32,650 nucleotides of DNA from a virus: the IMG/VR virus record IMGVR_UViG_3300037672_001346, positions 1-32,650 of that record; one strand, written 5' to 3'. Positions 1,832 through 19,425 of this stretch are shown piece after piece. Position numbers and translations under genes: made by a program. The notes beneath the pieces were generated by a model, which was given only the letters and a program-made list of their open reading frames with translations, had not been told where the DNA came from and searched no databases. Within the stretch, counting starts at the first letter, position 1. Every line of letters begins with the position of its first letter.

Positions 1832-3421
1832 ATGATAGAAAAAAACATTGATTTTGATCATGATGCTAGAGAACAGCTCCTCAACGGGGTTAATAAATTA
1901 GCAAATGCTGTAAAGCAAACACTAGGCGCAGCAGGAAACACAGTTATTTTAGAGGATGAAATAGGGCGACCACACATTACAAAGGATGGTGTGACTGTTG
2001 CTAAAAGTATCAACCTACCAGAGCCAGTAGCACACTTAGGAGCTACAGCAGTAAAGCAAGCCTCCATTAAGACCGCTGATGAGGCGGGGGATGGAACAAC
2101 AACATCAATAGTTATAACGCAAGAATTAGTTAATAGAGCGTTTGAAAAGATTGATAGTAAAAAACTCAATGTAACCAAGTTAAGAAACTCACTAGAATCT
2201 CTTTCTATAGATGTTATAAGTAGCATTAAAAAAAGATCGAAGGAGGTTACAGACGATAACCTAAAAAGTGTAGCTACAATAGCGGCAAACAACGACCCTG
2301 AGCTTGGAGGCATTATTGCAGACGCTTATCTTAAGGTTGGTGTTGATGGGGCTGTAACAATAGAGGAATCCATGACTAAAGAAACCTACACGGAGGTTGT
2401 AGAGGGAACTAGAATTAAAAGAGGATTTGACAGTCCCTATATGATTACAGACAAAGAAAAAAATCAAGCAATACTTGAAAATGCGTTTGTTCTTATATCT
2501 GACAAAAAAATAACCGTTGTTGAGGATATAGAGCCCGTGCTTAGGGTGGCTATGAAATCTAAACGTCCATTACTTATTATATCAGAGATGGAAACAGCCG
2601 TAATGAATCTGCTTAATGTAAACAAGGCTAGAGGAGTTTTAAGTGTTAGTGTGGTTGCTCCAGAAGGAGTGGGCTTAAACAGATTTGAGCTTTTAGAGGA
2701 TTTAGCTATTATGACTGGATCTATACTTGTTTCTGATGAAACGGGTAATGACTTCACCGCTATAGACGAAAGCTTCTTGGGACAAGTTAAAAAGTCGGTT
2801 TCTACAGATAAAGAAACTATACTTAGTCTTTCGGGTGAAAACATTGATACGATAATTAAAGAACGAGCTGATATGGTGCGCAACATCCTTAAAAAAAAGA
2901 AAGACCAATCAAATAGTTGGCACTATAAGGATAGGCTATCAAGATTGTCAGGAGGTATTGCAGCAATACATGTAGGGGCTCTTACTGAGGTGGAAATGAA
3001 AGAAAAGAAGGATAGAGTTGAAGATGCTATATTCGCTACTAGAGCAGCCTTAGAAGAAGGTATTGTTGCTGGAGGCGGCGTTTGTCTTTATAATGCAGCA
3101 ATGGAAATGCAGTCTAGATATTTTAAAGAAGAAGATGTTGAAACAAAGGAAGCTTGTTTAATTTTATCTTCAGCGCTGATATCTCCTATAAAACAAATAC
3201 TTGAAAATGCCTCTATGAGTTATGATGATTTTGTAGAGAAGATTGATACTGTGAGACGAAGAAACTCTGGGTACGATGTTAAAAATAAAAAATTTGGAAA
3301 CATGTTTACTATGGGTATTATAGATCCTTTTAAAGTTACAAAGAATGCTATACAGAATGCTGTTTCTGTTTCTATGACAATTTTAACAACCAACTGTGTA
3401 ATATCAAATAGAAGAGCATGA
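1832..3421 (+). CDS. groEL: Phage chaperonin GroEL (529 aa)
   Basis: Group I chaperonin of near full length. The ATP-site residues of E. coli GroEL sit at the same numbers: D52 in KDGVTVAK, D87 in AGDGTTTS, and D398 in VEDAIFATRAALEEG followed by the GGG turn. The P-loop-like LGAAGNTVIL is at 31-40. The C-terminus ends NRRA, without the GGM-rich tail of cellular GroELs. It should form the ATP-driven folding ring, most likely for phage capsid or fibre proteins, working with the GroES encoded immediately downstream (ATGA overlap). The preceding leader carries an AT-rich element shared with the gene at 28343. The ATG at 1832 fits the promoter position. Divergence from host-type GroEL and the phage neighbours indicate a phage gene rather than a contaminating host fragment. 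Confidence 0.95.
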   Translation: MIEKNIDFDHDAREQLLNGVNKLANAVKQTLGAAGNTVILEDEIGRPHITKDGVTVAKSINLPEPVAHLGATAVKQASIKTADEAGDGTTTSIVITQELVNRAFEKIDSKKLNVTKLRNSLESLSIDVISSIKKRSKEVTDDNLKSVATIAANNDPELGGIIADAYLKVGVDGAVTIEESMTKETYTEVVEGTRIKRGFDSPYMITDKEKNQAILENAFVLISDKKITVVEDIEPVLRVAMKSKRPLLIISEMETAVMNLLNVNKARGVLSVSVVAPEGVGLNRFELLEDLAIMTGSILVSDETGNDFTAIDESFLGQVKKSVSTDKETILSLSGENIDTIIKERADMVRNILKKKKDQSNSWHYKDRLSRLSGGIAAIHVGALTEVEMKEKKDRVEDAIFATRAALEEGIVAGGGVCLYNAAMEMQSRYFKEEDVETKEACLILSSALISPIKQILENASMSYDDFVEKIDTVRRRNSGYDVKNKKFGNMFTMGIIDPFKVTKNAIQNAVSVSMTILTTNCVISNRRA

Positions 3422-3675
3422 AAGCAATAGGAACGTTTGTTGTTTTAAGAAAACAAGAAGAAGAGGTAAAAAATAAAAGTGGTCTTATAATGACTGAGTA
3501 CACGGATAAAGATATAAGATATAAACTTGCTGAAGTTGTTTCTGTAGGAGAAGGTGTAAGTGGTTTACAAAAAGGCAATAAAGTTTATTTTGACTCTGCT
3601 GCGGGGTCTGATATTCGCATAGAAGGAGAAAAGCTTACGGTAATACCTGATAGACAGATAGTTGTGGTTTTGTGA
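3418..3675 (+). CDS. groES: Short phage co-chaperonin GroES (85 aa)
   Basis: GroES fold signatures are present: an N-terminal strand (GTFVVLRK), a mobile-loop segment with GLIM at about residues 23-26 replacing the cellular G-IVL contact, GEGV, then KGNKVYF, and a final strand resembling the cellular LxVIxDxxIxxVL ending. At 85 residues it is shorter than cellular GroES (about 95), and the segment that forms the dome hairpin is reduced to a few residues. It caps the GroEL ring and closes the folding chamber. It overlaps groEL by ATGA, so expression is probably coupled. The altered mobile loop suggests tuning to the phage GroEL. Confidence 0.9.
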   Translation: MKAIGTFVVLRKQEEEVKNKSGLIMTEYTDKDIRYKLAEVVSVGEGVSGLQKGNKVYFDSAAGSDIRIEGEKLTVIPDRQIVVVL

Positions 3676-5253: not shown

Positions 5254-5421
5254 ATGCCAGATAATATTGATTACAATGAATTTGTATTTAGAAATACAAC
5301 AGTTGAAAAGTTTTTAAATAATATAAAAGCTAAACAATTACCAGGAAATAAAAGAAAGGTTGGTACTCCTGGGGCTGCAGGCACAACGTTTGTAACTAAG
5401 AAACCTAAAACCACTGCTTAA
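5254..5421 (+). CDS. Small hypothetical protein (55 aa)
   Basis: ATG 5254 lies four bases after the previous stop, and the TAA (5419-5421) overlaps the next ATG as TAATG. The N-terminal half (MPDNIDYNEFVFRNTTVEKF) is mixed and probably helical. The C-terminal half is basic and flexible (GNKRKVGTPGAAGTTFVTKK). No family is recognised. Tight packing between two other small genes and the sharp change from structured to basic sequence support a real gene. Confidence 0.65.
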   Translation: MPDNIDYNEFVFRNTTVEKFLNNIKAKQLPGNKRKVGTPGAAGTTFVTKKPKTTA

Positions 5422-5591
5422 TGAATCCTCTTAGAAAACATAGAGGTCTTGGAGATACTGTTGAGGCAGTAACGCAAGCCACTGGCATCAAGGCTATTGT
5501 TGAGGCTGGTTCAAGAGCATTTAAAAAACCTTGCGGATGTGAGGGTAGAAAAAAAACTTTAAACGATATGTTTCCTTATGGCAAAAAGTAA
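5421..5591 (+). CDS. Small protein with CxC motif (56 aa)
   Basis: It starts at the ATG of a TAATG junction and ends 14 bases inside the next gene. The C-terminal part reads KKPCGCEGRKKTLNDMFPYG. I recall this CGCxxRKxxLNxMFPY pattern as a recurrent tail of small proteins in many phages. The two cysteines (38 and 40) could be half of a metal site completed in a dimer. The N-terminal half forms a possible amphipathic helix (DTVEAVTQATGIKAIVEAG). Function is unknown. Confidence 0.7.
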   Translation: MNPLRKHRGLGDTVEAVTQATGIKAIVEAGSRAFKKPCGCEGRKKTLNDMFPYGKK

Positions 5592-5739
5592 CACAAAAAT
5601 GAAAAGAGGTAATAAGATATGTGCCTCAGGAATAGCTTGGGCAAAACGTACTTTTGAAAAGTATCCTTCAGCTTATGCTAACATGGCAGCTAGTAAATAC
5701 TGCAAAGACCCTAACTACGCTAAAAAAAGTAAAAAATGA
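5578..5739 (+). CDS. Small basic protein, YPSAYAN type (53 aa)
   Basis: It overlaps the previous gene by 14 bases and the next by four (ATGA). The core GNKICASGIAWAKRTFEKYP followed by SAYANMAASKYCKDPNYA matches a motif recurrent in small marine-phage and large-virus proteins (a KxC...WAKxTFxxYPSAYANxxASKxC pattern, from memory). Two conserved cysteines (15 and 42) flank the helical core, and both ends are Lys-rich. Function is unknown. The high basic charge suggests binding to nucleic acid or to the virion interior. Confidence 0.75.
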   Translation: MAKSNTKMKRGNKICASGIAWAKRTFEKYPSAYANMAASKYCKDPNYAKKSKK

Positions 5740-5837
5740 TAGATTACAAAGAACCAGTATGTGAAGGACCTCAGTGTCAGTGCGGAAGCACCTCTAATGA
5801 GGATGGCACGTGTGACGGAACACATTTGAAAAAATAA
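5736..5837 (+). CDS. Mini CDGSH-like iron-sulfur protein candidate (33 aa)
   Basis: A 33-residue frame, overlapping the gene before it by ATGA and followed two bases later by the next ATG. It contains C9, C14, C16, C26 and H30 in CQCGSTSNEDGTCDGTH. CDGSH domains bind a [2Fe-2S] cluster through C-x-C-x8-C-x3-H. Here the pattern is C-x-C-x9-C-x3-H: one residue longer, without the usual proline, but with the CDG(S/T)H signature intact. Unlike its neighbours it is acidic rather than Lys-rich. It could carry an iron-sulfur cluster or simply bind zinc. Too short for a full CDGSH fold (about 60 residues), it would have to dimerise or bind another protein. Confidence 0.6.
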   Translation: MIDYKEPVCEGPQCQCGSTSNEDGTCDGTHLKK

Positions 5838-5838
5838 A

Positions 5839-6078
5839 ATGGCAGGAGCTCTTAAAAAATGGCGTGACCAGAATTGGGTTCGTATAGGAACGGATGGCTC
5901 TATACTAGGAGCTTGTGGTACAAGTAAGAATAAAAAGAATCCAGATAGATGCTTACCCTTATCTAAAGCAAGGAGTCTTAGCAAGGCTCAAAGAGCAGCA
6001 ACTGCTAAAAAGAAAAAAAGATCAGGAGGCAAAAAACAATTTGTTTCAAATACTAAAGCTGCAAAAGTAAAATCATAA
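5839..6078 (+). CDS. Small basic protein of a conserved marine-phage family (79 aa)
   Basis: ATG 5839 follows the preceding stop by one base, and its TAA overlaps the next ATG. The pattern WRDQNWVRIGTDGSILGACG, then NPDRCLPLSKARSLSKAQRA, ATAKKKK and VSNTKAAKVK, is one I recognise as a widespread domain of unknown function in cyanophages and other marine phages; I cannot confirm its database number. Two cysteines (26 and 38) are spaced for a possible metal site or disulfide. The C-terminal third is a Lys-rich tail. Function is unknown. Confidence 0.85.
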   Translation: MAGALKKWRDQNWVRIGTDGSILGACGTSKNKKNPDRCLPLSKARSLSKAQRAATAKKKKRSGGKKQFVSNTKAAKVKS

Positions 6079-6342: not shown

Positions 6343-9306
6343 ATGTCAAACACAAAGATAAAAGCGGGGCAATTCTCAGGAATTGTAGGACATGGGACTG
6401 ATGGATTTTTCTTAAAAACCAATGGAGACAGTACTATGGATTGGGCAGCTGCAGCTACTCCAAGTCCAACAATTACATCTGTTGATTATCCAGGAGATGA
6501 TTTAGCTGCAGACCCAGCTGGCAATCAAAGTGTTGTGTTAATAGGCTCTAATTTTGCTGCAAGCGGTATGACAGTTACTATTGGTGGGACAGCAGCATCT
6601 GCAGTAGCACACAACTCTACTACGCAACTAACTATTACTACACCTGCAAAATCAGCAGGTGATTATGACCTTGTTGTTACAGACGGAGCGACTGGTAATA
6701 CAGGTACATTTGTAAATGGTATATCTTATAATGGTATCCCAGCATGGACTACGGCAACAGGCAGTTTAGGAACATTAGAATCTGAAACAACAATATCTAC
6801 AATAACATTAGCGGCTACAGAACCTGATGGAGGTACTATAACCTTTAATATAACGAGTGGAGCGTTGCCTTCGGGTCTATCACTTACAGGTGCAAACATT
6901 GATGGTACAACAACTGCTGAGTCTTCTACAACTCTGTATAGTTTTACAGTTGAAGCTATAGATAATGAAAATCAATCAACACCTAGAGCTTTTTCAATAA
7001 CAGTTAATGCTGTTCCACTTATACCTACAGAAAACTTTGCAATAAACACTTATAATGGGACAGGATCAACACAGTCTGTGTCAGGTAAGATAGGCACTGC
7101 AGGCTCTTTTAACGGAAGCAGTAGTCTGGTTGATACAGGAATAAGTGGTCATACAGTCGCTTGGGGTTATACGGCTTGGTTCAAGACTACAGTGAATTCA
7201 GGATGCATACTTGCTACTTTAGCAGGTTCAGGCTCTAGTAGTGGCGTTGATATAATAATGCAATCAAGTGGTGGTCTACGTTGTCTTTTTCATCAAAATG
7301 GAAGTGTTATTAACGGTAGTACCTATATATTTGGAAGTGGTTTTAATGATGGTAATTGGCATTTTGTTGCTTATACTTGGGATGGTGTTAGTGGAAATGC
7401 TGCAACAATTAGAATAGATAATACAACATATACACAAGCAAGTAGCATTGCAGGAGGAACAAATGCTGACCAAACTTTAAAAATTGGGAGATTGGGCTCT
7501 TCTGCAGGTGGTGGACATTTTAATGGTTCAATTGACCAAGTAAGGATTTTTAATAAAAAACTATCTACTAGTGAATTAAATACTCTTTACGCTGAAACTT
7601 CTGCAAGTTCTAATAAATCTAATACAGATATTTTTAGCGATGCAAGCGGTGTTGCACTATATGAATTTGAGGGAAATGCTAACGATGCTGGTAATCCAGG
7701 GGTTACTGTTGCCTCTGGTCAAAGCGCAGTGTTTAACGGGAGTAGTAGTTATATTCAGTTACCTAATAATTCTTTTAATCATTCAACAATGACTTTTAGC
7801 GCTTGGGTAAATCCTAGCGCTGATGATGCTTATAATTACATATTTCTAAACGGAATGTATGATAATAGAATAGGTGGTACAATAGGATGGTATGTAAGGA
7901 GACAGCAAGGAGGTGTGCTTTTAGCTAGAGGGTTTTCATCTAATTCGCTTAGTACACCTGAATTTGATGTGACATCAGCATCAGGTATTATTCCACTTAA
8001 CACTTGGACTAATGTTGTTTGTGTTTTAACAACAACTTCTTTTAAGATCTATGTAAATGGTAATTCTACAGCCGTTGTTTCAGCTTCTTTTTCAAATGCT
8101 ATAACATATTCATCAAGTCAGCCTGCAGCTGTTTACATTGGAGTTGCTTATTATTATTATAATGCTAATCTCCATGAGTCGTATTGGGAAGGTGGACTTG
8201 ACCAAATAAGAATATATTCTACAAATTTAAGTAGCGGAGATGTATCTAACCTATATAACGAAACAAGTGTACCAACATCTAATCTTGTGGCTTGGTATAA
8301 ATTAGATGGAGACGCTAATGACTCGCAAGGAACTAATAATGGAGTGTGGAGTGGTACAGAAGCATATTCGAGCGCAGCTGCAAGAGGGTCATCTCTAAAC
8401 AACGGAACAGCTACAAATCTAGGTTTTGTTGGGATGGATTTTCAACCAGATTTTACTTGGATAAAAAATCGTACTCCTGGCGGAGTAGGATATTCTCATC
8501 AATTATATGACTCTGTGCGAGGTGTTACTAAAGCTATATTTACTAATGATACAGACGTAGAATATACGAGAACTAATGGTTTAACTTCTTTTGATTCAAA
8601 TGGATTTACTGTTGGCTCAAGAGCAGATACAAATTCTGGAACAATGGTGTCTTGGAACTGGTACGCTCCTACTTCAGAAAGTATTAGTGCAAGTGGTTCT
8701 CGTATTGCTTCAACTGTAAAAAAGAATGTAGCTGCAGGGTTTAGTATTGTACAGGGAAGTTTTGCAACTAATGAAGCATCTACTAAAGTTGTAGGTCACG
8801 GACTGTCATCTCCAAAATTAATTATTTATAAAGCAACAAATATAGTTTTACCGTGGTTTAATTTCGGAGTACACGGAGGAAGTGTATTTGGAAATAATAA
8901 TGTATTAAGATTTAATACTGATGCAGCAGCTAATGATAGCACTTTTGATATAACAAGTACAACATTTAAAGTAGGTTCTACTGGTACTGCTCACACTTTT
9001 ATAGCTTATTGTTTTGAAGATGTAGCAGGTTATCAGAAAGTGGGCAGTTATACAGGAAACAGACCGAGTAACGTAACAGTTCCTACAGGTTTTCAGCCAA
9101 GATTTGTAATGATAAAAGCAGATGCTGCAGGTGAGGGTTGGACTATAGTAGATTCAGCAAGAGGGAATTTTGCTTTATATCCAAACTCAAGTGCGATTGA
9201 GGATGCTTATACAAGTGTTACTTTTAATTCAACAGGGTTTGTGGTTGGTAATTCAGGATTAGTAAATACAAGCGGAGCAAATCATATTTATTTAGCAATC
9301 GCATAA
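6343..9306 (+). CDS. Large LamG-domain tail adhesin (987 aa)
   Basis: Modular surface-binding protein. The N-terminal segment (1-40) has the GQFSGIVGHGTDGFFL look of phage fibre attachment regions. Residues about 42-130 resemble an IPT/TIG Ig-like domain and 131-223 a second, cadherin or He_PIG-like Ig domain (ALPSGLSL). Two LamG/concanavalin-like domains follow at about 230-420 and 436-640, each ending in IDQVRIF or LDQIRIY. The last 300 residues are one copy of a repeat module (FQPDFTWIK, DSVRG, FDSNGFTVG, GFSIV, GHGLSSP, YCFEDVAGYQKVGSYTG) that occurs twice in the adhesin at 16627. Both proteins end in IYLAIA. It probably binds host-surface polysaccharide or protein. Some databases may call the repeat DUF7483; I have not verified that. 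Confidence 0.85.
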   Translation: MSNTKIKAGQFSGIVGHGTDGFFLKTNGDSTMDWAAAATPSPTITSVDYPGDDLAADPAGNQSVVLIGSNFAASGMTVTIGGTAASAVAHNSTTQLTITTPAKSAGDYDLVVTDGATGNTGTFVNGISYNGIPAWTTATGSLGTLESETTISTITLAATEPDGGTITFNITSGALPSGLSLTGANIDGTTTAESSTTLYSFTVEAIDNENQSTPRAFSITVNAVPLIPTENFAINTYNGTGSTQSVSGKIGTAGSFNGSSSLVDTGISGHTVAWGYTAWFKTTVNSGCILATLAGSGSSSGVDIIMQSSGGLRCLFHQNGSVINGSTYIFGSGFNDGNWHFVAYTWDGVSGNAATIRIDNTTYTQASSIAGGTNADQTLKIGRLGSSAGGGHFNGSIDQVRIFNKKLSTSELNTLYAETSASSNKSNTDIFSDASGVALYEFEGNANDAGNPGVTVASGQSAVFNGSSSYIQLPNNSFNHSTMTFSAWVNPSADDAYNYIFLNGMYDNRIGGTIGWYVRRQQGGVLLARGFSSNSLSTPEFDVTSASGIIPLNTWTNVVCVLTTTSFKIYVNGNSTAVVSASFSNAITYSSSQPAAVYIGVAYYYYNANLHESYWEGGLDQIRIYSTNLSSGDVSNLYNETSVPTSNLVAWYKLDGDANDSQGTNNGVWSGTEAYSSAAARGSSLNNGTATNLGFVGMDFQPDFTWIKNRTPGGVGYSHQLYDSVRGVTKAIFTNDTDVEYTRTNGLTSFDSNGFTVGSRADTNSGTMVSWNWYAPTSESISASGSRIASTVKKNVAAGFSIVQGSFATNEASTKVVGHGLSSPKLIIYKATNIVLPWFNFGVHGGSVFGNNNVLRFNTDAAANDSTFDITSTTFKVGSTGTAHTFIAYCFEDVAGYQKVGSYTGNRPSNVTVPTGFQPRFVMIKADAAGEGWTIVDSARGNFALYPNSSAIEDAYTSVTFNSTGFVVGNSGLVNTSGANHIYLAIA

Positions 9307-9551
9307 TGGGATTAGGAAAAACAGCAAAATATTATAGAGAAAATCCTAAAGCAAGAGCTAAAAAAGCTGAATACGACAGCATCTTTCAGAAAAAAAGAAA
9401 GCAAGTTAAGAAGCGTGTTGAATGTAATAAGTGGAACAGAAAAAACGGAAAGAAAGGAGATAATATGGACTGCTCACATCAAAAAAACGGATCAATTATA
9501 GCAGAGCACAGAAAACCAAACAGAGCCAGAGGAGGCTCACGAAGAGTTTAA
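9306..9551 (+). CDS. Small basic hypothetical protein (81 aa)
   Basis: ATG 9306 overlaps the adhesin stop (TAATG). The protein is strongly Lys/Arg-rich. Its C-terminal part, GDNMDCSHQKNGSIIAEHRK then NRARGGSRR, recalls a short motif seen in many phage proteins (DxxHxxGxxxxExxxxNRARG). It has a superficial similarity to HNH-type D-H and N-R residues, but no complete nuclease motif is present. It opens the lysis-region genes. Function is unknown. Confidence 0.75.
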   Translation: MGLGKTAKYYRENPKARAKKAEYDSIFQKKRKQVKKRVECNKWNRKNGKKGDNMDCSHQKNGSIIAEHRKPNRARGGSRRV

Positions 9552-9567
9552 TTTTAATTTTTTATAT

Positions 9568-9864
9568 ATGACAACTATTATTTATATTTTAATCGCAGTA
9601 ATCGCAGTATTAGTTATTGTTAACATAGCTGCAATATGGTTAACTCGTAAGGGGTTAACAAAAGACGAAAACAACAACATGATCCCTGATCTCCTAGAGG
9701 AGAAAATGGCTGATTTGAAAGAGGATGTATCTATAAGAGTTTCTCGTGTAGGAGAAGAGCTTAAAGATGTTTCTAAAGCAATCAAAGAAGTTGGAAATCA
9801 AATAGGAGATATTCCAAAAGCAGCTACAGGAAAAACAAGACCAGGCAGAAAGCCTCAAAAATAG
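9568..9864 (+). CDS. Single-TM membrane protein with coiled-coil tail (98 aa)
   Basis: Residues 3-25 form a transmembrane segment (IIYILIAVIAVLVIVNIAAI). It is followed by a possible calcium-loop-like stretch (DENNNMIPDLLEEK, 33-46), then a helical, charged region (ADLKEDVSIRVSRVGEELKD) and a basic Pro-rich end (GKTRPGRKPQK). With two more small membrane genes, an endolysin and a holin candidate following, it probably belongs to the lysis machinery, for example an accessory holin or spanin-like protein. No lipobox is present, so it is not an outer-membrane lipoprotein spanin. Confidence 0.75.
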   Translation: MTTIIYILIAVIAVLVIVNIAAIWLTRKGLTKDENNNMIPDLLEEKMADLKEDVSIRVSRVGEELKDVSKAIKEVGNQIGDIPKAATGKTRPGRKPQK

Positions 9865-10307: not shown

Positions 10308-10769
10308 ATGGAACGTATCTCTGAAAATATAAGCTACAGAGAGGCAATAAAATCAAATACGGCTATGCGTAAAGGCATAGATAATACACCAACATCTTAT
10401 GAGATAACTAATATGGTTGGTGTGGCTAAAAACATATTTGAGCCTTTAAGAAAGTGGGTTGGAGGACCTATTAAGATAACAAGCATGTTCAGGTCCGAAA
10501 AATTAAATCGTGCTATTGGTGGGAGTTCTCGAAGCCAGCACTGCCAAGGTAGAGCTTTAGATCTGGATGACACATTTGGACATAAAACTAATGCTGAGAT
10601 GTTTGATTACATTAAAAGTAATTTAAGCTTTGATCAACTTATATGGGAGTTTGGAAGTGATATTAATCCAGATTGGATTCATGTAAGTTATATTTCTAAT
10701 GATGAAAATAGAGGTCGTGTTATGCAAGCTCAAAAAATTAATGGCAAAACTAAATATAAATACATATGA
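10308..10769 (+). CDS. Endolysin, M15-family peptidase (153 aa)
   Basis: Zinc peptidase of the M15 (D-Ala-D-Ala carboxypeptidase/VanY-like) type. Motifs: ITSMFRSEKLNRAIGG (57-72), SQHCQGRALDLDD with H78 and D85 as zinc ligands, a candidate catalytic E114 (WEFG), and WIHVSY with H125 as the third ligand. Such enzymes cut the peptide part of peptidoglycan and serve as phage endolysins. No signal peptide is seen, so it needs a holin to reach the wall, which fits the membrane genes around it. The downstream holin candidate overlaps it by ATGA. The length is typical for the single-domain form. Confidence 0.92.
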   Translation: MERISENISYREAIKSNTAMRKGIDNTPTSYEITNMVGVAKNIFEPLRKWVGGPIKITSMFRSEKLNRAIGGSSRSQHCQGRALDLDDTFGHKTNAEMFDYIKSNLSFDQLIWEFGSDINPDWIHVSYISNDENRGRVMQAQKINGKTKYKYI

Positions 10770-11233
10770 GTAAAGAAAGAAAATCGTTTAAAGAAACTGG
10801 ATTAGGAAAAATATTGCTTAAAGTTTTACCAAATGTTGTAAAAGGCGCTTCTCAATTTTTACCAGACTCAGGGGTTACGGGTGTTATAAAAAATTTAATA
10901 AACAGTGATCCAAACATGTCTGATGACGAAAAAGCAGCTGCGCATGATCAGCTTGTAGAGCTTTATAGACTTGAAGTAGAAGATAGAGATTCAGCGAGAA
11001 AAAGAGAAGCCGCAATTGTAGCTTCAGGCGGAAGGGATTGGATGATGACACTTACAGGGATTGTAGGCTTGTCTGCCTTTGGGTTTTTAGTTTATACGGT
11101 TGTAACAACACAAGTTCCTGAAACAAACAAAGAAATATTTATTCATATGATTGGAATTGTTGAAGGAGTAGCACTAAGTATATTTGGTTATTATTTTGGT
11201 TCAGCTGTAAAGAAAGACGACAAGAATGGATAA
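10766..11233 (+). CDS. Holin-type protein with two C-terminal TM segments (155 aa)
   Basis: Residues 1-80 are soluble, with an amphipathic start and an acidic helical part (DPNMSDDEKAAAHDQLVELY, then RDSARKREA). Two hydrophobic helices follow at about 91-111 (MMTLTGIVGLSAFGFLVYTV) and 125-147 (IGIVEGVALSIFGYYFGSAV), with a KKDDKNG tail. This layout resembles the phage holin group often called Holin_3TMs. It directly overlaps the endolysin gene (ATGA), the normal partner arrangement. The assignment rests on layout and neighbours; an internal virion protein is the alternative. Confidence 0.8.
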   Translation: MSKERKSFKETGLGKILLKVLPNVVKGASQFLPDSGVTGVIKNLINSDPNMSDDEKAAAHDQLVELYRLEVEDRDSARKREAAIVASGGRDWMMTLTGIVGLSAFGFLVYTVVTTQVPETNKEIFIHMIGIVEGVALSIFGYYFGSAVKKDDKNG

Positions 11234-16626: not shown

Positions 16627-19425
16627 ATGGCTATAAATAAAAGATTAATAGCAGGTGCGCCAACAGGCGGTGGTGGTGCTTGTACTACTAACACTTTACA
16701 AATATTAGGTGATTCATCTTGTATTGCTTATTATAAAATGGCAGATGCTACTGATGAAAGTGGCTCTCATAACGGAACACCTACTTCAGTTGATTTTAAT
16801 GTAGAAGGTAAGTATGGATTAGCAGGTGGTTTTAATGGTAGTAGTAGTAAAATAGTATTACCCAATTCTTCATTTCAAACATCTGCATTTACAGTTTCTG
16901 CTTGGTGTAATGTTACAGCTAATGGAAGTGAAAATAGTATATTTGAATTTACTGACACAAATTCTGGAAACAATCAAAGCACAGTGCTTTTAAGTGCAGG
17001 TAATGCGTCAAATTCATCAAGATTTTTAATTAGAAATACAACATCAAATGAATATAGTCACGCACCAAGCGGAACACCTGCAACTGGATGGAATCACTAT
17101 TGCTTGACTTTTGATGGCTCTACTGCTAAATCTTATATAAATGGAAGTGAGGTTAATAGTGCAAGTTTTTCTATAACAAATACAATAGCATCAACAAGTG
17201 AGGTGCTTTTAGGTTTATCAGCAACAGATAGATTTTTAAATGGCAAAATAGACCAAGTAAGAATATTCAACAAAGCAGTTTCAGCTTCAGAAGTAGGAAA
17301 ATTATATGCAGAGGTACAATGTGCAAGTGCTGTAACTCCAAGTGAGCATTTTAATACTGTTTTATTTACAGGAAATGGAGCAAGTGGCAGAACGGTAAAT
17401 GTAGGATTTGAACCTGCTTTAATTTGGCAGAAATTTAGAAACTTTAATTATGACCATCAATTAATGGATAGTGTAAGAAGTAATTTCACAGAGCTGCTTC
17501 AATCAAATTCTAGTGCCGCCGAAAACACTAATAGTGGAGTTATAACATCAACAAGTTCCACAGGTTTTACAACAGGAACTTCAGGCATTGTTACTTCGGC
17601 TTATAATATGGTTTTTTGGAATTGGTATGCTCCTACTTCAGAGACTAACAATGCAGGTTCTAATGGCGCTACAATTGCATCAACTATAAAAAAGAATGTA
17701 GATGCAGGATTTAGTATTGTTTCTTATAATGGTGCTACAAATGCCACAAGTGATGGTTCTAATAACAGCGGAGTTGGTTGGAACATTGGACACGGACTGT
17801 CGGTTGCACCATCTTTGATTATTATTAAAAAAACTAATAACACAGCGAGTTGGTATGTGGGTGCAGACGGAATATCCAGCAATCCTTGGACAACTGGAAA
17901 TGGACAACATTTAGTGTTAGATGAATCTTATGCTAAAAGTTCTCCTGGAGGTTCTACTAAAATATGGAATAGTGCGCCAACAGCTACAACATTTAATGTG
18001 GGAGGATGGGATGTAGTTAATAGAAATGGAGATTCTTACATTGCCTACTGCTTCCACAGCGTAGAGGGTTATTCTCGTATAGGTTCTTATACAGGAAATG
18101 ATGGAACAACAAATATTGTAACAGGATTTGAACCCGCTTGGATTATGATAAAATGTTCAAGTAATGGAGGTACAAATAAAGAATGGAATATTTTTGATAA
18201 TAAAAGAGATACATCTCCTTTAAACAACAGACTTGAAGCAAATACAAGTGATTCAGAAACAACAGATACATCTAACATTATATTAAATACTAATGGCTTT
18301 ACTATTGCCGATAATGGTACTGCTACAGGTTCAGTAAATCAAGTAGGTTTTGACTACATCTTTATGGCTTTTGCTCAAGACCCAGATACTACACCTGCAA
18401 CTAAAGCGGATAGTTTTGATGTCATAACTTATACAGGTAATGGTGGAACACAATCTACAAACTCATTATCAAATCAAAGTGGTTCTGTAAGTTTTAAGCC
18501 AGACTTTGTTTGGTTTAAACGAAGAAGTGATACAGAAGACAATGCTTTCTTTGATAGTGTAAGAGGTGTCCAAAAACAAATTGTGGCTAATAAAACAAAT
18601 GCAGAATCTACTAAAACAAATGCTTTAAGTTCATTTGATTCTAATGGATTTACTATGGGAGCAAACAATGCTCTCAACACAAACAATCAAACGTACGTTG
18701 CTTGGAATTGGAAAGCAGCAGACCACGATAGAGGTTTAGCTACTATAAACCAAGACGGAAGCATTACAAGTTTAGTTAGTGCGAATCAAAATGCAGGATT
18801 TAGTATTGTGAAAACAACATCACCAAGTTCTACAATTAATTTTAATTATGGACACGGACTTTCTCAAGCACCAGAACTTGTTATGGTTAAAACTCTAAAC
18901 ATAGCATCTTATTGGGAAGTTATTTTTCCTGATACTTTTGGCTCAGTTTCAGGAAGTAGTTCGCCATCTAATTGGAATAGAATAAAATTAAATGAATCTG
19001 ATGGTGTAATGTCAAGCAATGCTTATTTAGCAGCAGATGGAACTAAAATCTACAATGGTGCTTGGCAGGCAAATACCGAACTAATAAACTACTGCTTCCA
19101 TTCAGTAGATGGTTATCAGAAAGTGGGGAGTTATGCAGGGTCAGGAGCAGCAAATAAACAAATAACGACAGGCTTTCTTCCATCGTTTTTAATGATAAAA
19201 AATATTACAAGTTCATCAAGCACAGGTTGGGTTATTTTAGACACAGCAAGAGATGGTACGACTGAAAACGGAAATGCTTTATTTGCTAATTCATCAGGGG
19301 CTGAATGGGGTGCAAGTAATACTACTATAGACATAGACTTTACTGCAACAGGGTTTACAATACAAAATGGATATGTGGTTGTAAATGGTGGAAGTGATAC
19401 ATATATCTATTTAGCAATAGCATAA
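16627..19425 (+). CDS. Second LamG tail adhesin, paralogue of the 6343 gene (932 aa)
   Basis: The Gly-rich N-terminus (GAPTGGGGACTTN) leads to one LamG domain at about 35-232 (IAYYKMADATDESG to IDQVRIFNKAVS). Two copies of the roughly 340-residue module found once in the 6343 adhesin follow, starting at about residue 240 (FNTVLFTGNG) and 598 (FDVITYTGNG). Each has PxFxWxKxR, DSVR, AGFSIV, GHGLSxxPxLxxxK, YCFHSVxGYxxxGSY and a final aromatic strand. The protein ends in IYLAIA like its paralogue. DNA similarity is visible, for example the stretches starting near 8709 and 17688. It probably recognises the host surface. Ig domains of the first adhesin are missing. Confidence 0.85.
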   Translation: MAINKRLIAGAPTGGGGACTTNTLQILGDSSCIAYYKMADATDESGSHNGTPTSVDFNVEGKYGLAGGFNGSSSKIVLPNSSFQTSAFTVSAWCNVTANGSENSIFEFTDTNSGNNQSTVLLSAGNASNSSRFLIRNTTSNEYSHAPSGTPATGWNHYCLTFDGSTAKSYINGSEVNSASFSITNTIASTSEVLLGLSATDRFLNGKIDQVRIFNKAVSASEVGKLYAEVQCASAVTPSEHFNTVLFTGNGASGRTVNVGFEPALIWQKFRNFNYDHQLMDSVRSNFTELLQSNSSAAENTNSGVITSTSSTGFTTGTSGIVTSAYNMVFWNWYAPTSETNNAGSNGATIASTIKKNVDAGFSIVSYNGATNATSDGSNNSGVGWNIGHGLSVAPSLIIIKKTNNTASWYVGADGISSNPWTTGNGQHLVLDESYAKSSPGGSTKIWNSAPTATTFNVGGWDVVNRNGDSYIAYCFHSVEGYSRIGSYTGNDGTTNIVTGFEPAWIMIKCSSNGGTNKEWNIFDNKRDTSPLNNRLEANTSDSETTDTSNIILNTNGFTIADNGTATGSVNQVGFDYIFMAFAQDPDTTPATKADSFDVITYTGNGGTQSTNSLSNQSGSVSFKPDFVWFKRRSDTEDNAFFDSVRGVQKQIVANKTNAESTKTNALSSFDSNGFTMGANNALNTNNQTYVAWNWKAADHDRGLATINQDGSITSLVSANQNAGFSIVKTTSPSSTINFNYGHGLSQAPELVMVKTLNIASYWEVIFPDTFGSVSGSSSPSNWNRIKLNESDGVMSSNAYLAADGTKIYNGAWQANTELINYCFHSVDGYQKVGSYAGSGAANKQITTGFLPSFLMIKNITSSSSTGWVILDTARDGTTENGNALFANSSGAEWGASNTTIDIDFTATGFTIQNGYVVVNGGSDTYIYLAIA

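Follow-up and report, generated by a model that had tools for sequence, protein, structure and literature searches.

A very small gene in a late phage operon

The window, by which we mean the whole stretch of viral DNA analysed (32,650 nucleotides; IMG/VR record IMGVR_UViG_3300037672_001346), probably belongs to a podovirus of Bacteroidota, since its portal protein shares 45-53% identity with the portal proteins of Flavobacterium phages, Maribacter phages and an uncultured podovirus record. Within it, a gene of only 33 codons is packed between two other small genes, and the lysis genes lie further along the same operon. The features that concern us here are as follows.

5578..5739, + strand: upstream small gene, phrog_27331, unknown function (PHROGs E=1e-20); its stop overlaps the start codon of the mini-CDGSH gene
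5736..5837, + strand: mini-CDGSH gene, 33 aa, x9 variant (translation; leave-out family profile; 84-homologue alignment)
5775..5825, + strand: codons C14 to H30 of the CDGSH-like motif, with putative ligands C14, C16, C26 and H30 (translation; chance expectation)
5839..6078, + strand: downstream small gene, phrog_23735, unknown function (PHROGs E=2.6e-27)
9306..9864, + strand: two small genes (9306-9551 and 9568-9864), with no CDGSH gene between or after them in the window; relatives L012, L017, L028 and L087 have a mini-CDGSH there
10308..11233, + strand: lysis genes, of M15 peptidase/endolysin type (10308-10769) and holin type (10766-11233), from matching cluster profiles whose representatives match phrog_894 endolysin and phrog_3427 holin

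The gene at 5736-5837 (+) encodes MIDYKEPVCEGPQCQCGSTSNEDGTCDGTHLKK*. Its start codon shares bases with the stop codon of the upstream gene (ATGA), and its own stop lies one base ahead of the ATG of the next gene. Translation confirms the motif read at this locus in an earlier note, C-x-C-x9-C-D-G-T-H, which has one residue more than the CDGSH pattern, lacks its proline and retains all four ligands; in full, the spacing is C14-x-C16-x9-C26-D27-G28-T29-H30. Set against the published CDGSH consensus, C-X-C-X2-(S/T)-X3-P-X-C-D-G-(S/A/T)-H (PMC5859297), the S/T7 residue is present as T19, whereas the loop is longer by one and Gly24 stands near the position of the proline. A CxCx8-9CDG[STA]H motif is expected 2.7e-6 times by chance over all open reading frames of the window, and shuffling of the window peptide regenerated the motif 7 times in 2,000,000.

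Taken alone, the protein returned nothing convincing in single-sequence searches of Pfam, PHROGs and the PDB, which gave only noise; there was no Pfam or NCBIfam hit, and no Pfam match to the CDGSH family PF09360 even at E=1. A Pfam match to Toxin_37 (termicin) at E=0.012 was below the cut-off and was rejected as a cysteine match. No close copy was found in INPHARED phage records or PLSDB plasmids by tblastn, a search that is weak for queries of 25-43 aa.

The gene belongs to a conserved family of minimal proteins

Relatives were fetched in two ways, through the two flanking genes and through degenerate DNA patterns. The first route yielded 157 neighbour-anchored loci, of which 15 carry a mini-CDGSH gene of 25-38 aa, nine with nine residues between the second and third cysteines (x9) and six with the canonical eight and the proline (x8). 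The second, a scan of IMG/VR and of GTDB species genomes in which G17 was required and whose counts are lower bounds, gave at least 170 distinct x9 genes of 45 aa or less, the window copy included. Many of the listed phage matches are stand-alone proteins of 22-45 aa; the listed cellular matches are mostly of 24-41 aa and come from marine Flavobacteriaceae and Paenibacillaceae. Of 300 genomes sampled from the family that includes Polaribacter glomeratus, 15 carry a copy scoring above 40 bits. The window gene is thus no lone oddity, the x9 form without proline being a consistent trait across the family. The earlier proposal that the protein would be one of the smallest of its kind holds insofar as it is unusually small, but it is not the smallest, as relatives, cellular as well as viral, reach down to 22 aa.

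A profile built without the window recovered the window gene at 43.4 bits (E=4.2e-13) and gave no other significant match within the window. In an alignment of 84 diverse x9 members, the positions C14, C16, G17, G24, C26, D27, G28 and H30 do not vary at all, while T19 and S29 hardly do. Because motif scans select for the ligands, we turned to two counter-checks, the neighbour-anchored loci and a codon test that leaves out the motif positions. All four ligands are kept in 15 of the 15 neighbour-anchored hits above noise, and control sequences in which one or two ligands were replaced still score 29-51 bits, so that such variants would have been detectable. For nearest-neighbour pairs, dN/dS outside the motif codons is 0.30 in phages and 0.20 in bacteria, indicating that these codons are under purifying selection; the value obtained with the motif codons, 0.11, was set aside as biased. 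Homologues in other phages with conserved ligands had been named beforehand as a test of the motif, and many were found, with the four ligands in every solid relative. We are in next to no doubt that the window open reading frame is a real conserved gene.

The x9 module also occurs in longer or altered forms. Nine loci (L415, L427, L452, L453, L455, L483, L496, L500 and L511), mostly from Opitutae, encode two tandem x9 motifs in 54-63 aa. The module forms the C terminus of a long phage protein with an XkdF-type protease domain (PF14550; L186:1914-3680) and is likewise C-terminal in long phage proteins of L205, L215, L269 and L274; x9 tails are found on bacterial ribosomal protein S16 and PSP1-type proteins (L498:4289-4939, L417, L508 and L519), and the module is also a terminal tail on WYL_2. 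In a single relative, near a contig end (L520:160-276, minus strand), the CDGSH part is replaced by CDWFGTYSC, making this either a decayed copy or a real variant.

Relationship to known CDGSH proteins

At the level of profiles, the family is homologous to known CDGSH proteins. The x9 profile aligns to the canonical x8 phage minis with an hhalign probability of 95.5 (E=1.5e-8), and in a profile search of the PDB the best match and five of the six listed matches are CDGSH proteins, individually at weak E values (0.011-0.93). No Pfam family recurs except PF09360, which is reached by 48 of the 84 x9 members at E<=1 (best 5.8e-4) and by all 18 aligned x8 minis, one of which, the 29-aa protein of L026, exceeds the PF09360 cut-off (31.2 versus 29.5 bits). 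The window protein falls short of that curated cut-off.

Comparison with the CISD/NEET proteins (PF09360; types 1-7, Lin et al. 2011, PMC3174974; PDB 3tbm, 3tbn and CISD2) reveals both what is kept and what is lost. The ligand pattern C-x-C ... C-D-G-(S/A/T)-H is present in the window protein and its 84 aligned homologues, as is S/T7. The spacing X2-(S/T)-X3-P-X is not: family-wide, the loop has nine residues rather than eight, with Gly24 in place of Pro11, so that eight of the nine universal motif positions defined by Lin et al. (PMC3174974) are retained. The N-strand, the P motif and Pro11 occur in all solved CDGSH structures and are described as required, the elements outside the motif being considered necessary to pair two clusters (PMC3174974); at 22-45 aa in total, the x9 minis have no sequence outside the motif to form an N-strand, a P motif with its lid proline, or the beta-sandwich that pairs two clusters. 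AlphaFold models are of low confidence both for the window family (pLDDT 68, isolated bridges only) and for the tandem form (pLDDT 57), and Foldseek found no match in the PDB.

Two further forms offer closer parallels. The x8 phage minis (L026, L029 and L299) are likewise tiny stand-alone phage modules, and those of L026, L029 and L043 are followed, like the window copy, by a phrog_23735-type gene; they differ in having the x8 spacing and Pro11. The tandem Opitutae minis resemble Type 6 tandem CISD proteins (MmCISD, CISD3/MiNT) in carrying two motifs per chain, but with x9 spacing, 7-11 residues between the motifs and no beta-strand region. On this evidence, the window protein appears to function in the manner of a CDGSH module and to be derived from, or very close to, the CDGSH family, and, because two of its defining tests failed, to be a variant rather than a plain member. 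That the mini-CDGSH protein is a CDGSH-derived metal module seems to us highly probable.

Genomic context differs between bacteria and phages

In bacteria, among the matches listed, a YceI gene lies directly upstream of the mini-CDGSH gene in 53 of 88 cases and an FMN_red flavoprotein directly downstream in 16 of 77, often with operon gaps of 0-6 bases. HxlR regulators stand beside some copies, and DoxX and direct fusions to YceI also occur. YceI proteins are isoprenoid-quinone binders.

Around the phage genes, neither YceI nor FMN reductase recurs as a neighbour. Phage copies instead occupy at least four slots in one late operon: between the genes that correspond to 5578-5739 and 5839-6078, an order that the window shares with L083, L086, L094, L099 and L270; between the two small genes of 9306-9864 (L012, L017 and L028); after the second of these (L087); and just before groEL (L097). 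Of 85 x9 phage copies, 48 have a holin or M15 endolysin gene no more than two genes away, compared with 18% of all genes in those loci, relatedness among the loci being uncorrected in this comparison. Within the late and lysis region, the mini-CDGSH gene has the behaviour of a movable accessory element.

A putative [2Fe-2S] relay and its alternatives

We propose that the gene product is a free-standing CDGSH module, comprising little beyond the metal-binding loop, whose ligands would bind a [2Fe-2S] cluster as those of mitoNEET do. Two copies probably pair, as the tandem-duplicated Opitutae versions suggest. The cluster would then relay single electrons from reduced flavin to a quinone or to oxygen. 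In vitro, mitoNEET, in concert with a flavin reductase, is reported to hand electrons from FMNH2 on to ubiquinone or O2 (PMC9490426), and a mitoNEET-like relay of this kind fits the bacterial order YceI - mini-CDGSH - FMN reductase. In phages, which have probably exchanged the gene with Bacteroidota hosts, the protein would be made late, with the lysis-region genes, and would adjust the infected cell's redox state or respiration. To this proposal as a whole, a [2Fe-2S] electron relay between flavin and quinone made with late and lysis genes, we assign a probability of about 0.48. Several points weigh against it. By itself the window protein does not reach PF09360, and the structure models are of low confidence and gave no Foldseek match. 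A chain of 25-33 residues without Pro11, the N-strand or the P motif may be unable to hold a 2Fe-2S cluster; the logic of the host operon may not be transferable to phages, because their recurrent neighbours include no YceI or FMN reductase; and the fusions to ribosomal S16, PSP1 and the XkdF protease have no obvious redox role.

The same size and tail-like fusions make a zinc module the main rival, and a serious one, although we consider it rather unlikely. Three cysteines and one histidine could form a structural zinc knuckle that binds a partner protein or nucleic acid, the resemblance to CDGSH reflecting an efficient metal loop with no redox chemistry. Its use would be comparable to that of the SEC-C zinc motif (PF02810), a short CxC...C element that serves as a portable tail on unrelated proteins and has no DGSH signature. 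The very short chain with its four ligands, the loss of Pro11 and of the fold that pairs 2Fe-2S clusters, and the terminal position of the x9 module on S16, PSP1, the XkdF protease and WYL_2 all agree with such a role. Yet Asp-Gly-Ser/Thr-His and S/T7, which are associated with cluster binding in CDGSH proteins of solved structure, are strictly conserved, and the DGSH signature itself sets the x9 module apart from SEC-C; among the 84 x9 members, PF09360 recurs while no Pfam match to SEC-C is seen at E<=1; and the bacterial neighbours are flavin and YceI proteins. Judged from these sequence comparisons, a [2Fe-2S] cluster is the likelier occupant of the site, with a fair degree of confidence.

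Even with a cluster in place, the module need not carry electrons. The clusters of NEET proteins are labile and bind NO (PMC9490426). A CDGSH protein with a labile [2Fe-2S] cluster could instead sense redox state, iron or nitric oxide, or could donate its cluster; in phages, it may adjust when lysis occurs or provide another Fe-S enzyme, such as the radical SAM protein, with clusters. HxlR regulators beside some bacterial copies, the enrichment in the phage lysis region and the radical SAM gene present in both the window and L087 are consistent with this reading, which we regard as improbable: most copies are not beside regulators, and most mini-CDGSH loci show no radical SAM gene. The link to that enzyme, raised in the earlier note, proved weak, as a homologue occurs in only two fetched loci, L087 with a mini-CDGSH gene and L089 without. 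Finally, a chance or decaying reading frame amid dense small genes, encoding no functional protein, could explain a gene of 33 codons that most of the related phages lack (a mini-CDGSH is present in 15 of the 157 neighbour-anchored loci), but it is rejected as scarcely credible on conservation and dN/dS, given the rarity of the motif, a profile match of E=4e-13, dN/dS of 0.2-0.3 outside the motif codons and tight coupling to both flanking genes.

Should the module bind a cluster as we propose, it would be one of the smallest iron-sulfur proteins in nature and would contradict a rule derived from the solved CDGSH structures, namely that Pro11 and a beta-sandwich pairing domain are required. It would also place a small electron carrier in the bacterial YceI / FMN-reductase operon and imply that phage redox genes exist below the length reach of standard annotation. 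A literature search, incomplete in coverage and thus no proof of novelty, found no paper that connects CDGSH with YceI or with auxiliary genes of phages. We suggest, tentatively, that the x9 minis may constitute an undescribed minimal class of stand-alone Fe-S proteins (22-45 aa, x9 CDGSH), common to uncultured marine phages and their flavobacterial hosts, which would hold a [2Fe-2S] cluster without beta-sandwich or proline, serve a YceI / FMN-reductase quinone relay and count among the smallest auxiliary metabolic genes. At this length the peptides can be made by synthesis, which opens the claim to direct test.

Other features of the window

Several other genes of the window merit mention in their own right. 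The neighbour at 5421-5591 ends in KKPCGCEGRKKTLNDMFPYGKK, and its family in related phages keeps a C-G-C ... R ... LN ... FPY tail, possibly another small metal site. The radical SAM protein, at 865-1788, also has a SPASM domain (PF04055, E=1e-8; PF13186, E=1e-7) and lies just upstream of the phage GroEL, which forms a pair with GroES at 1832-3675 and recurs in many related loci. Two long related proteins of surface or fibre type, at 6343-9306 and 16627-19425, are matched by the same cluster profile.
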